Assembly (NCBI GenBank): GCA_023264995.1
Contig: JAHFUR010000029.1
Span: 1 to 54,657 of the forward strand
Direction of reading: 5' to 3'
Length of the DNA: 54,657 bases
Origin: Acidimicrobiia bacterium
GTDB lineage: Bacteria > Actinomycetota > Acidimicrobiia > Acidimicrobiales > AC-14
This document shows positions 45,242-53,711 of this stretch, in pieces. Each line of letters begins with the position of its first letter. Positions within the stretch are counted from its first letter, which is position 1. A model generated the notes under the pieces. The model was not told the origin of the DNA, made no database searches, and saw only the letters and a program-made list of their open reading frames with translations. A program made the position numbers and the translations under genes.

Positions 45242-45402
45242 GTCCTCCTCCAGAGCGGGCCCGTTCCGTCGGCCACCCGTCACGACGGGCCGCGCCATCC
45301 GGTGCAATCCAGCATACGGTGCCCCTGCCGGCGGTCAGCCACGCCATCTGACAGCAGGTCCCGCCGTCAGCGCGACAATGACGGGCCGAGAGGAGGCACG
45401 TC

Positions 45403-47664
45403 ATCACCGTCACCGCGAGTACCCCTGTTGAGCTCGTCCAGCGCCTGTACGCCGAGATGGACGATCGGGTGGCCGCGGGCCGCCGCCTGCTCGGCCGGCC
45501 GCTGGCGCTCGCGGAGAAGGTCCTCCTCACCCACCTGGCCGACATGGCCGTCGACCCTCCCGTCCGCGGCCGGTCGTACGTGGAGCTGCGCCCCGACCGG
45601 GTGGCCATGCAGGATGCCACCGCCCAGATGGCCGTCCTCCAGTTCATGACCGCCGGGCTGCGCTCGGTCCAGGTGCCGACCAGCATCCACTGCGACCATC
45701 TGATCCTGGCGCAGGACGGGGCCGCGGCCGACCTTGCGGTAGCCGAGGAGGCCAATCGGGAGGTGTACGACTTCCTGCGCACCGCGTCGGCCCGGTACGG
45801 CATCGGCTTCTGGAAGCCGGGCGCCGGCATCATCCACCAGGTCGTCCTGGAGCGCTACGCCTTCCCCGGCGGGATGATCATCGGCACGGACAGCCACACG
45901 CCCAACGCCGGCGGGCTGAGCACCATCGCCATCGGCGTCGGCGGCGCCGATGCGGTCGACGTCATGACCGGTGGCCCGCTCGGGCTGCGATGGCCTCGCC
46001 TGATCGGCGTCCACCTGACCGGGTCCCTCTCGGGTTGGGCGTCGCCCAAGGACGTGATCCTGCGGGTCGCCGAGGTCCTGACCGTGCGCGGCGGCACCGG
46101 GGCCATCGTCGAGTACTTCGGGCCGGGTACGGCGGCCATCAGCTGCACCGGCAAGGCGACCATCTGCAACATGGGCGCCGAGATCGGGGCCACGACGTCG
46201 ATCTTCCCCTACGACCAGCGGTCCCGGGCCTACCTGGCCGCCACCGGTCGCCCGGAGCTGGCTGACGCGGCCGTCGCCGTGTCCGACCACCTCCGGCCCG
46301 ACGACGAGGTCCTGGCCGACCCCCGCTCGTTCTTTGACGAGGTCATCGAGATCGACCTCTCAGCCCTCGAGCCTCACGTCGTCGGGCCCCACACGCCCGA
46401 CCTTGGCCGGCCTGTGTCCGCCCTCGGCGCGGAGGCCAAAGCGCGGGGCTGGCCCCTGGCCCTGTCGCAGGCCCTGGTCGGTTCGTGCACCAACTCGTCG
46501 TACGAGGACATCAGCCGGGCGGCCAGCGTGGCCCGCCAGGCCACCGCCCGCGGCCTGCGGACCCGTACGCCCCTGCTGATCACACCCGGGTCCGACTCGG
46601 TGCGGGCCACAGTCGAGCGCGACGGGCTGCTGGCCGACCTGGAGGCGGTCGGCGCCACCGTCCTGGCCAACGCCTGCGGGCCCTGCATCGGCCAATGGGC
46701 CCGGACCGACGTGGTCACCGGCACCGGGAACTCCATCATCACCTCGTTCAACCGCAACTTCCCGAAGCGCAACGACGGGAACATCGAGACGCTGGCCTTC
46801 ATCGCCTCGCCGGAAACCACGGTGGCGTACGCCTTGGCCGGCACGCTCGACTTCAACCCCCTCACCGATCCCGTCGGTGGCTCGCCGCTCGACGTGCCGG
46901 TGGGGGCCGAACTGCCTCCCGGCGGGTACGCCGCCGGTGACGCCGGCTTCGTCGGGCCGCCGGAGGACGGGGCCGGCGTGGCCGTCGTCATCGACCCGGC
47001 CAGCGCCCGGCTGCAGCGGCTCGACCCGTTCCTCGCCAACACCGACGACGAGCTGCCGGCCCTGAGGGTCCTCCTCAAGGCCCGCGGCAAGTGCACCACC
47101 GACCACATCTCCGCGGCCGGGAAATGGCTCCGTTTCCGGGGCCACCTGGAGAACATCAGCGCCAACCTCTTCGCCGCGGCCACCAACGCCTTCACGGGCG
47201 AGCCCGGTGCCGGCTGGTGCGACGTCCACGGGGCCTACGAGCCCTTCCCCGACGTCGCCCGGCACTACCGGGAGGCCGGGCTGGCGTGGGTGGCCGTCGG
47301 CGACGAGAACTACGGCGAGGGGTCGTCGAGGGAGCATGCGGCGATGGAGCCCCGGTTCATGGGCTGCCGGGCCGTGATCGTGCGGTCCTTCGCCCGGATC
47401 GCCGAGACCAACCTCAAGAAGCAGGGTGTCCTCCCGCTGGTCTTCGCCGACCCGGCAACCTATGACGAGGTCGGCGAGCTAGACCGGATCTCCATCTTCG
47501 GGCTCGCGGGGCTGGCCCCAGACCAGCCCGTGGCCTGTCGGATCCACCGGCCCGACGGCTCCACGCTCGATTTCAACTGCGCCCACACCCTCAGCGAGGA
47601 GCACATCGCCTGGTACCGGGCCGGTAGCGCCCTCAACCTCATCCGCCAGCGCTTCGGCGCCTGA
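45403..47664 (+). CDS. acn: Aconitate hydratase
   Basis: The product has about 753 residues. The [4Fe-4S] cysteines are in GSCTNSSYED and NACGPCIGQW. Other signatures are GIGFWKPGAGIIHQ, IGTDSHTPNAGGL and GDENYGEGSSREHAAMEPRF of the swivel domain. It interconverts citrate and isocitrate in the TCA cycle and is of the mitochondrial-like type. The first ATG in frame (45457) would cut off a conserved-looking stretch (TPVELVQRLYAEM). A strong AGGAGG (45391-45396) lies 6 nt before an in-frame ATC at 45403, so I place the start there as a non-standard AUC. It stands alone, convergent with the next membrane-protein gene. Confidence 0.88.
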   Translation: MTVTASTPVELVQRLYAEMDDRVAAGRRLLGRPLALAEKVLLTHLADMAVDPPVRGRSYVELRPDRVAMQDATAQMAVLQFMTAGLRSVQVPTSIHCDHLILAQDGAAADLAVAEEANREVYDFLRTASARYGIGFWKPGAGIIHQVVLERYAFPGGMIIGTDSHTPNAGGLSTIAIGVGGADAVDVMTGGPLGLRWPRLIGVHLTGSLSGWASPKDVILRVAEVLTVRGGTGAIVEYFGPGTAAISCTGKATICNMGAEIGATTSIFPYDQRSRAYLAATGRPELADAAVAVSDHLRPDDEVLADPRSFFDEVIEIDLSALEPHVVGPHTPDLGRPVSALGAEAKARGWPLALSQALVGSCTNSSYEDISRAASVARQATARGLRTRTPLLITPGSDSVRATVERDGLLADLEAVGATVLANACGPCIGQWARTDVVTGTGNSIITSFNRNFPKRNDGNIETLAFIASPETTVAYALAGTLDFNPLTDPVGGSPLDVPVGAELPPGGYAAGDAGFVGPPEDGAGVAVVIDPASARLQRLDPFLANTDDELPALRVLLKARGKCTTDHISAAGKWLRFRGHLENISANLFAAATNAFTGEPGAGWCDVHGAYEPFPDVARHYREAGLAWVAVGDENYGEGSSREHAAMEPRFMGCRAVIVRSFARIAETNLKKQGVLPLVFADPATYDEVGELDRISIFGLAGLAPDQPVACRIHRPDGSTLDFNCAHTLSEEHIAWYRAGSALNLIRQRFGA

Positions 47665-50285: not shown

Positions 50286-51416
50286 TCAGCGGCCGAGCGC
50301 GTGGGCCAGGTCGGCAATGAGGTCGTCGACGTCCTCGATCCCCACCGACAGCCGGACCAGTCCCGGGTCGGCGGCCAATGGCGTGCCGGCCAGGCTGGCG
50401 TGGCTCATGCGGGCCGGGTAGCCGATCAGTGATTCCGCACCGCCCAGGGACTCGCCCAGGGTGAACAGCCGGGTACGGGCCACCAGGTCGGCGGCGGCCG
50501 CCTCCCCCCCACGCAGGACGCAGGACACCATGCCCCCGAAACCGCCCGTCATCTGGCGGGCAGCCAGGGCGTGACCGGGGTGGTCGGCGAGCCCCGGGTA
50601 GGACACCGAGCGCACCGCCGGGTGGGAGCGGAGGTAGCCGGCGACCGCCAAGGCGTTGGTGCAGTGGCGGTCCATGCGCAGCGCCAGGGTCTTGACCCCG
50701 CGGAGGACGAGGAAGCAATCGAACGGCCCGGGGACCGACCCCGCCGCGTTGCGGACGAGGCGGATGGCCGCGGCCAGGTCGTCGTCATCGGTGGCTACGA
50801 AGCCGCCGATCACGTCGGAGTGCCCGCCGAGGTACTTGCTGGTCGAGTGGACCACAAGATGGGCGCCGAGCTCCAACGGCCGCTGCAGCCAGGGCGTGGC
50901 GAAGGTGTTGTCGACGGCGCACCACGCCTGCCGCTCGCGGGCCAGGGCCGCCAACGCGGCGATGTCGACGACCTGGAGGCCGGGGTTGGTCGGTGACTCG
51001 GCCCAGACGAGCCGGGTCCGGTCGGTCCAGGCGCCGGCGACGGCGCCCAGGTCGGACAGGTCGACCGCGGTGAACGAGGCGCGGTGGACCTGGCTCAGGA
51101 GCCGGTGCGTGCCGCCGTACCCATCGGCGTTCACCAGGACGTGGTCATCGGGCCCCAGCTGGCGCAGCACAGAGTCGACGGCGGCCATGCCGCTGGCGAA
51201 GGCGAGGCCGTGCGCCGCCCCCTCAAGGGAGGCCAGGCAGGTCTCAAGGGCGGTACGCGTCGGGTTTGCCGTGCGGGCGTACTCGTAGCCCTTGTGGCCG
51301 CCGAGGCCCTCCTGGGCGAACGTGGAGGTCTGGTAGATCGGCGTGGTGACCGCGCCGGTGGCCGGGTCGGGCTCCTGGCCCTCGTGGACGGCCCGGGTGG
51401 AGAACCCGGCGATCAG
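50286..51416 (-). CDS. Cystathionine gamma-synthase-type PLP enzyme
   Basis: The product has about 376 residues. It has FSTRAVHEGQEPDPATGAVT, YQTSTFAQEGLGGHKGYEYA, PTRTALETCLASLEG, DNTFATPWLQRPLELGAH and the PLP lysine in HSTSKYLGGHSDVIGG. This set defines the Cys/Met metabolism trans-sulfuration family; cystathionine gamma-synthase or gamma-lyase is most likely. The first ATG (51188) would remove a conserved 75-residue N-terminus. The true start seems to be at 51411-51416, where CTG ATC GCC overlaps the TGA of the upstream CooC-like gene; neither codon is a standard start. Translational coupling to that gene is likely. Confidence 0.85.
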   Translation of the reverse strand: MIAGFSTRAVHEGQEPDPATGAVTTPIYQTSTFAQEGLGGHKGYEYARTANPTRTALETCLASLEGAAHGLAFASGMAAVDSVLRQLGPDDHVLVNADGYGGTHRLLSQVHRASFTAVDLSDLGAVAGAWTDRTRLVWAESPTNPGLQVVDIAALAALARERQAWCAVDNTFATPWLQRPLELGAHLVVHSTSKYLGGHSDVIGGFVATDDDDLAAAIRLVRNAAGSVPGPFDCFLVLRGVKTLALRMDRHCTNALAVAGYLRSHPAVRSVSYPGLADHPGHALAARQMTGGFGGMVSCVLRGGEAAAADLVARTRLFTLGESLGGAESLIGYPARMSHASLAGTPLAADPGLVRLSVGIEDVDDLIADLAHALGR

Positions 51417-52231: not shown

Positions 52232-52451
52232 CCACGTCTCCCTTCCGAGTCCCCCTCCATCATGCCGCGAACCTGACCTCGGGCGGGGCGATTCCCCGTC
52301 CCGAACACGTGGTCGGGTATGATCGGGGGGCGACGGGTGCACTCGGCACCTCAGTCGGGGCCTTTCCTTCCTCCTGTGCGACCGGGCCAGCGTGGCCCGG
52401 GCGACGACCTGGCGGGTTCGGCCCGCCTCGTACCCAGCTCAGGAGATCACC

Positions 52452-53711
52452 ATCACCACGAAATCGTTCGCCGCGCTCGGCGTCGCGCCCGACTTGGCCG
52501 CCGCTCTGGCCGCCTCCGGTATCACGTCGCCCTTTGCCATCCAGACCCTCACCATCCCCGACGCCCTCGCCGGCCGCGACGTCTGCGGCAAGGCCCAGAC
52601 CGGTTCGGGCAAGACCCTGGCCTTCGGCCTGCCGGTCATCATGCGTACCACCGAGGCCCGGCCCAACCACCCCAAGGCGCTCATCCTCGTCCCCACCCGT
52701 GAGCTGGCCCACCAGGTCCAGGAGGTGCTCACGCCCCTCGCCGCGTCCCGCGACCTGCGGCTGAGCGCTATCTACGGCGGGGCGCCGATGGACCGCCAGG
52801 TCAAGGCGCTCAAGCGGGGGGTCGAGATCGTGGTGGCCACGCCCGGCCGCCTCATCGACCTGGGCGACCGGGGCGACATCTCCCTCTCGGAGGTCGAGAT
52901 CCTGGTCCTCGACGAGGCCGACCGCATGGTCGACATGGGCTTCATGCCCCAGGTCGAGTGGGTGCTGCGCCGGCTGCCCGTCCCCCACCAGACGCTGCTC
53001 TTCTCGGCCACCCTGGACTCCGACGTCGACCACCTCATCAAGACCTACGTCAACGCCCCGGCCCACCACGAGGTGGAGTCGGAGACGCCGACGGTCGACA
53101 GCATGGAGCACCGGTTCCTCAAGGTCCACCAGATGGACAAGGTGAAGGTGGCCTCGGCCATCGCCCAGCACGTCTACCGCACCCTGGTCTTCGTCCGGAC
53201 CAAGCGGGGCGCCGACCGCCTCGTGGTGCAGCTGCGCAAGGAGGGGGCCAAGACCGAGGTCCTGCACGGCGGCCTCACCCAGGGCGCCCGCCAGAAGGCC
53301 CTGCAGCGCTTCACCGCCGGCGACGTCGGCATCCTCGTGGCCACCGATGTGGCCGCTCGGGGCCTCGACATCGACGGCGTCGACGTGGTCGTCCACTACG
53401 ACCCCCCGGAGGACCACAAGGCCTACCTGCACCGCTCGGGGCGCACAGCCCGGGCCGGCGAGACCGGCGTGGCCGTCAGCCTGCTCCTGTGGGACCAGGT
53501 GGCCGAGGCCGAGAAGCTGCGCCGGCGTCTCGGCATCCGCCAGCCGCTGGTCGAGGCCTTCTCCAACGACGTCCGCCTCCAGAACCTGGCCGCCGACGTG
53601 TGGGGCCCGCTCGACGAGCTGGAGCCCGCCGGTGCCGGCGCTCCCGTGCAGGCGACCCACACCATCGCCCGACGGATGGGTGGCGGCGCCGGTCGCCGAC
53701 GCCGGCGCTGA
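52452..53711 (+). CDS. DEAD-box RNA helicase
   Basis: The product has about 419 residues. All motifs are present: Q-motif FAALGV...PFAIQ, AQTGSGKT, PTRELAHQV, TPGRLIDL, VLDEADRMVDMGF, FSATLD, VFVRTKRGADRL, VATDVAARGLDIDGVDVVVH and HRSGRTARAG. It is a minimal helicase with a short tail ending RRRR. An AGGAG (52441-52445) lies 6 nt before an in-frame ATC at 52452 that reads ITTKSFAALGV, exactly where homologues have MTT. No ATG, GTG or TTG fits. I propose an AUC start. A GTATGATC at 52316-52323 may be the -10 region, giving a leader of about 120 nt. Confidence 0.92.
   Translation: MTTKSFAALGVAPDLAAALAASGITSPFAIQTLTIPDALAGRDVCGKAQTGSGKTLAFGLPVIMRTTEARPNHPKALILVPTRELAHQVQEVLTPLAASRDLRLSAIYGGAPMDRQVKALKRGVEIVVATPGRLIDLGDRGDISLSEVEILVLDEADRMVDMGFMPQVEWVLRRLPVPHQTLLFSATLDSDVDHLIKTYVNAPAHHEVESETPTVDSMEHRFLKVHQMDKVKVASAIAQHVYRTLVFVRTKRGADRLVVQLRKEGAKTEVLHGGLTQGARQKALQRFTAGDVGILVATDVAARGLDIDGVDVVVHYDPPEDHKAYLHRSGRTARAGETGVAVSLLLWDQVAEAEKLRRRLGIRQPLVEAFSNDVRLQNLAADVWGPLDELEPAGAGAPVQATHTIARRMGGGAGRRRRR

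Follow-up and report, generated by a model that had tools for sequence, protein, structure and literature searches.

The DEAD-box RNA helicase gene of the window, the whole 54,657-nt stretch of DNA analyzed here, probably starts at an AUC codon at position 52452, and its translation is likely to be throttled twice, by this near-cognate start and by a predicted leader helix over its Shine-Dalgarno (SD) sequence. A hidden SD combined with AUC suggests that the cell may keep the helicase under unusually tight translational control.

An AUC codon behind a Shine-Dalgarno sequence

The gene opens with ATC ACC ACG AAA TCG, and the 6-nt spacer ATCACC separates this opening from AGGAG; the original prediction had read the arrangement in the same way, and in the helicase frame it is borne out. 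The features at the start are:

52452..53711, plus strand: DEAD-box RNA helicase gene, 419 residues when read from ATC, coordinates including the stop codon
52452..52454, plus strand: putative ATC start codon of the helicase, separated from AGGAG by 6 nt in each of the three genus members seen
52441..52445, plus strand: helicase SD sequence AGGAG (CTCAGGAG identical in three species)

Pfam DEAD and Helicase_C domains are found in the protein, and its best NCBIfam matches are of the CshA/DbpA/RhlE type, all below the family cut-offs. Alignment to the solved CshA places helicase residue 5 opposite CshA chain residue 3, so no N-terminal extension is expected. As a bare pattern, AGGAG-N6-ATC is near chance: two copies are found in the window where 1.13 are expected, and 29 of 100 shuffles reach two. 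The longer AGGAG-N6-ATCACC is found once against an expected 0.04 (3 of 100 shuffles). The evidence for the AUC start is instead comparative. The helicase frame is open for 43 codons upstream of the ATC and contains a GTG at 52392, which an automatic gene finder would probably choose.

Conservation of the helicase start

Two sister species of the window genus (G001 and G002; G000 is the window genome) were found by searching 60 genomes with each protein, and the genus comparison covers these three genomes of Acidimicrobiales, all in many contigs. The helicase ATC lies 6 nt after AGGAG in each of them, with the spacers ATCACC, TTCCTC and CACATC in G000, G001 and G002, respectively. It is conceivable that the protein instead starts at GTG 52392 with a 20-residue extension, which would make ATC 52452 an internal isoleucine. 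This GTG is in frame in the window genome, and an in-frame ATG stands at the same distance, 20 codons upstream of the ATC, in G002; G001, however, has no in-frame ATG, GTG, TTG or CTG for 72 codons upstream. Leader indels shift the upstream frame between species, and the possible extension peptides of G000 and G002 have little in common beyond QE, itself encoded by the SD. The 20-codon extension thus appears not to be conserved. The GTG also lies inside a predicted leader hairpin, and both the CshA alignment and the AGGAG 6 nt before the ATC speak against it, making a start there quite improbable.

A start at a canonical codon downstream is less credible still. TTG 52494 is the first such codon after the ATC, but a start there would remove a conserved FxxLG segment common to the homologues and CshA, which we take to be the region of the Q motif, and the nearest downstream alternative in G001 and G002 is a GTG located elsewhere. 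Equally hard to credit is an AUC produced by assembly error or carried by a decaying gene. The fragmentation of the genomes into many contigs would favor such a reading; against it, ATC agrees across three separate genomes in three genes (the helicase and the aconitase and YceI genes described below), and the neighboring bases differ in helicase and aconitase. This spacer argument applies only to those two genes, because the YceI SD and spacer are nearly unchanged. Also against this reading are protein identities of 85–88 percent between genus members for helicase and aconitase, with frames open throughout.

Among 30 helicase loci, 27 of them outside the genus, ATG (12), GTG (8) or TTG (2) occurs within 6 codons of the aligned residue. 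The eight loci that lack these codons there are the three genus members and five others, and each of those five offers an ATG, GTG or TTG in frame at a greater distance upstream (in one relative, L019, an ATG 23 codons away). The original claim that homologues read MTT at this point therefore fits the 22 loci with a canonical start near the aligned residue and not the remaining eight. With ATC kept in the three genus members seen and no consistent alternative start, the comparison supports the proposed near-cognate AUC as the conserved helicase start in these species.

Companion near-cognate starts and their rarity

Two further genes of the window genome begin with ATC behind a strong SD, and one of them lies in the window:

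45391..45396, plus strand: aconitase SD sequence AGGAGG
45403..47664, plus strand: aconitase gene (TIGR01340) read from ATC, with ATC in the three genus members seen
L081:13861-14409 of the window genome, plus strand: YceI-family gene with a conserved AGGAG-6-ATC AAC ATC AAG start

In the three genus members an in-frame stop precedes the aconitase ATC by 7, 17 and 7 codons, with no ATG, GTG or TTG between. Of 80 aconitase loci elsewhere, 77 show ATG (74) or GTG (3) no more than 6 codons from the aligned residue; one of the others lacks a canonical start and two align too late to tell. The helicase had been described as the second case in the window, with the same spacing and the same ATC ACC context. 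Aconitase and the shared context stand, and the "same spacing" holds only within one nucleotide, because the aconitase spacing of 6 nt from AGGAGG is 7 nt from AGGAG. The YceI ATC is kept in all four copies (G000, G001 and both G002 copies), each with a TGA four codons upstream and no intervening ATG, GTG or TTG.

The parallel drawn earlier with infC also fits. In 11 genomes read by eye, the aligned place of infC holds ATA in six (G000–G004 and G011, thus including the window genome and both sister species) and ATC in four (G005, G006, G012 and G013), while G010 has an in-frame ATG close to it; the infC frames of G011 and G012 are open far upstream. In five genomes (L283 of the window genome, L281, L284, L275 and L276), the ATA stands 9 nt behind AAGGAG with an in-frame TGA two codons upstream. 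Since infC reads ATA, near-cognate starts occur in the window genus.

Scanning the genome for strong SDs followed by ATC, the check proposed with the original prediction, showed such starts to be rare. There are 70 AGGAG-N5-7-ATCA sites in the window genome, of which a script kept 22 with a coding score and a frame open for at least 60 codons downstream, a screen that would miss the starts of genes shorter than 60 codons. Reading these 22 left three ATC gene starts, those of aconitase, helicase and YceI, at which coding begins at the ATC without a nearby conserved canonical start. Nor is ATC enriched after strong SDs in a 291-kb sample comprising the window and up to 20 kb of contigs 1–15, with 268 gene calls (8 of 356 codons, versus 444 of 19,369 codons overall). 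With only three such starts among the 70 sites and no bulk excess, AUC is a rare start rather than a changed code, and genome-wide AUC recoding is rejected. An SD followed by any conserved codon was also rejected as a start criterion, since too many internal matches occur for it to discriminate.

Among 161 genes with an orthologue (198 pairs, from contigs that are not random, some having been chosen for holding window genes, YceI or infC), 33 pairs have no shared ATG, GTG or TTG near the start. Inspection identified six genes in which a near-cognate codon is shared where the start is expected: helicase, aconitase and YceI (ATC), infC (ATA), and a cystathionine-synthase-like gene and fmt (CTG). 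The rest of the 33 pairs either run into contig ends or give no clear reading. Near-cognate starts of this kind would probably escape automatic annotation. The apparent CTG of the cystathionine-synthase-like gene (window 51414–51416, minus strand) is conserved in the three genus members and in the window overlaps the upstream stop as CTGA; an ATC start considered for this gene near 51414 was rejected, as the conserved codon is CTG. The fmt-like gene (methionyl-tRNA formyltransferase, named by eye; L322, near 27772 on the minus strand of contig C59 in the window genome) likewise has an apparent CTG start in the three genus members. A nitroreductase gene (L077:17339, plus strand) has ATC where relatives have ATG or GTG, with a stop four codons upstream; G001 and G002 contain no close orthologue (best identities 34 and 38 percent).

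A leader predicted to hide the helicase SD

In the window genus, the helicase leader is predicted to hide the SD. From about −91 to the start it consists of an invariant pyrimidine block followed by two hairpins:

52361..52376, plus strand: pyrimidine block CCTTTCCTTCCTCCTG, shared without change by the three genus members (alignment)
52371..52376, plus strand: anti-SD sequence CTCCTG, predicted to pair with CAGGAG at 52440–52445 (0.84–0.99 per base pair; RNA fold)
52382..52400, plus strand: predicted leader hairpin CCGGGCCA-GCG-TGGCCCGG (RNA fold), spanning the rival GTG 52392
52411..52427, plus strand: predicted leader hairpin GGCGGG-TTCGG-CCCGCC (RNA fold), with one mismatch in G001

The predicted SD helix of the two sister species sets CTCCTGAG against CTCAGGAG. 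The hairpin at 52382..52400 has a different sequence in both sister species and is still predicted. Predicted long-range pairing of the helicase SD is 0.983, 0.997 and 0.983 in G000, G001 and G002, respectively, and an SD pairing of 0.9 is reached by three of 81 control codons, which are ATG, GTG or TTG codons behind a strong SD near gene starts (78 genes of G000; putative starts). Fold z-scores for the leader are −2.64 in G000 and −2.03 in G001. Within these three sequences both partners differ in only 3 of 36 predicted pairs, and several pairs are lost in one species, so support for the genus leader comes from conservation more than from covariation. SD burial is not common to the AUC genes as a group, because pairing in G000, G001 and G002 is mixed for aconitase (0.72, 0.01 and 0.65) and high only in G002 for YceI (0.01, 0.19 and 0.99). 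Considered by itself, the 60-nt region surrounding each start has a weak fold (−6 to −16, versus −22.9 for random genome windows).

A covarying leader RNA upstream of orthologous helicases

Relatives in other families carry a helicase leader of different design, in which a hairpin GCGAGC...GCTCGC is followed by GGGYC-ACCTC and, 9 to ~65 nt further on, by GAGG-GRCCC. A count of these segments in 12 of 12 relatives' leaders is not independent evidence, because the segments were chosen by eye. The pattern GCTCGCGGG-N2-4-ACCTC proved unspecific as a marker (137 of 397 genomes) and was therefore replaced by a covariance model, R1, which comprises hairpin P1 and helix X and was built from eight hand-checked leaders. 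RNAalifold on four relatives suggested the outline of helix X, and the columns and pairs finally used were assigned manually.

On 1.02 Mb of sequence, R1 recovers the eight training leaders and two held-out helicase leaders (E 0.0085–0.0086), with nothing else below 0.6. Over the genomes of the order, 16 of 397 match once each with E up to 0.001, under strict filters that lose weak matches; the two held-out genomes missed this cut. In all 16 cases the match precedes the aligned start region of the helicase by 15–91 nt. Eight matches are outside the training set, though not all are distant from it: three belong to genera and two to families represented there, and the remaining three fall in a single genus.

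L402–L417, L012 and L020: leader RNA with covariation (P1 and helix X), preceding the helicase orthologues of other Acidimicrobiales

Aligned to R1, the 18 sequences pair in 94.4 percent of cells, and four pairs are changed on both sides (12 cells). Helix X pairs in all 18 sequences and P1 in 86 percent of cells. None of 500 shuffles is as high as the covariation score of 0.210 for these 18 sequences, in an alignment that is fitted to the model and leans towards it. With the unfitted alignment A4, in which L017 is misplaced by one column, 2 of 500 shuffles reach the score; another alignment, A5, was dropped because L015 was misplaced.

Read against the aligned frame, the 16 R1-matched helicases start with ATG (6), GTG (5) or TTG (5). 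A script that used whichever canonical codon came first behind the SD gave 9, 2 and 5; three of its ATG calls run into a stop immediately or after one further codon, which makes GTG preferable there. Predicted folds of several relatives have the SD base-paired, and the anti-SD/SD helix across the 16 relatives is no better than in shuffled loops (combined p 0.15). At the leader, a scan of the window and 15 helicase loci against Rfam 15 found no family at gathering score; another Rfam scan gave only two matches, far below gathering.

R1 does not match the leader of the window genus, even with filters off, so homology between the two leaders is not supported. They precede the same gene and follow analogous logic. 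Translational throttling of the helicase is probably older than the AUC, because orthologues in other families carry a different, covarying leader and often GTG or TTG starts.

The AUC start could be real and the leader fold a by-product of high G+C without a regulatory role, the codon alone setting a low level. Random 60-nt windows of the genome average −22.9, compensatory changes within the genus are few, and R1 finds no match there, all of which would suit such a reading. However, CTCCTG stays unchanged while the rest of the leader varies, SD pairing stands out from that at the 81 control sites, and orthologous genes elsewhere have a covarying leader; we regard a leader without function as rather unlikely.

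Proposed mechanism and relation to known systems

Under the double throttle proposed here, leader CTCCTG would pair with CAGGAG and cover the SD, so that 30S subunits would reach the site only when the helix opens. Ordinary fMet-tRNA(CAU) would then read AUC with a third-position C-C mismatch, which IF3 would disfavor. Helicase output would thus be low, rising once the helicase itself, temperature or another factor opens the helix, and also when IF3 is scarce relative to 30S subunits. The signal may be IF3, temperature or the helicase. The leader is an attractive case of feedback, in that an RNA-unwinding enzyme could open its own messenger.

A broader proposal is more tentative, and we find it somewhat easier to doubt than to accept: an undescribed cis-regulatory RNA class may precede the DEAD-box helicase gene in Acidimicrobiales, with two alternative states switched by the helicase or by temperature. 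It would consist of hairpin P1 followed by a two-part helix of GGGYC-ACCTC with GAGG-GRCCC, which would coexist poorly with a long SD-holding hairpin. The weak starts (TTG, GTG and, in the window genus, AUC) would belong to the same throttle, and the genus element would have diverged to a plain anti-SD/SD leader.

In Escherichia coli, infC, which encodes IF3, starts with AUU, and the Myxococcus IF3 gene (dsg) uses AUC; to our knowledge, conserved AUC starts outside infC are rarely documented. The helicase resembles these genes in having an AUN start behind an SD, where IF3 disfavors weak third-base pairs. It differs in encoding a DEAD-box helicase and, compared with infC, in using AUC, and here control by IF3 would be a possibility. 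SD-sequestering mRNA leaders include riboswitches, thermosensors and autogenous leaders. The predicted anti-SD/SD pairing and the conserved helices upstream of one orthologous gene in relatives resemble such leaders, whereas the window and 15 helicase loci hold no Rfam family at gathering score. A literature search covering few subscription papers found no report of AUC starts or of this helicase leader in Acidimicrobiia. The covarying leader of the relatives is a candidate for a new regulatory RNA linked to a single orthologous RNA-helicase gene, and three conserved AUC starts plus an AUA-started infC in one genus make a small IF3-sensitive gene set testable.

According to the available part of one report, Staphylococcus aureus infC starts with AUA, and strong SDs precede the near-cognate starts of cvfC1 (AUU), ccpN (AUA) and citZ (AUA), those of cvfC1 and ccpN being conserved (PMC13009471). 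That part describes the citZ AUA only for the NCTC 8325 lineage, and gives reporter levels of ~10 percent of AUG in poor medium, with up to 30 percent for ccpN in rich medium (PMC13009471). The shared features are near-cognate starts with strong SDs and, for citZ, a TCA-cycle gene comparable to aconitase; genes, phylum and codon differ, and the same part describes no hidden SD. In a reconstituted system, the available portion of a second report indicates that more IF3 reduces the share of full-length peptide made from weak third-base pairs such as AUU/CAU, the pairs described there not including AUC/CAU (PMC10158994).

Initiator tRNA and 16S rRNA tail in the genus

The initiator tRNA has the ordinary CAU anticodon in G001 and G002, and a recoded initiator tRNA is rejected for these two species. 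In the G000 assembly a search for an intact tRNA-fMet found only a 3' remnant. Remnants that retain only the 3' part and lack the 5' half, of the kind an integrated element leaves behind, occur in G000 (L163, C42:7502) and G001 (L172, C106:32577), and the intact G001 tRNA-fMet lies 10 kb from its remnant. The G001 16S tail ends in the usual CACCTCCTTTCT. The actinobacterial small RNA Ms_IGR-5 (RF02471) occurs in the three genus members (L341, L343 and L344), where it overlaps a CACCTCCTTTCT stretch like the 16S tail.
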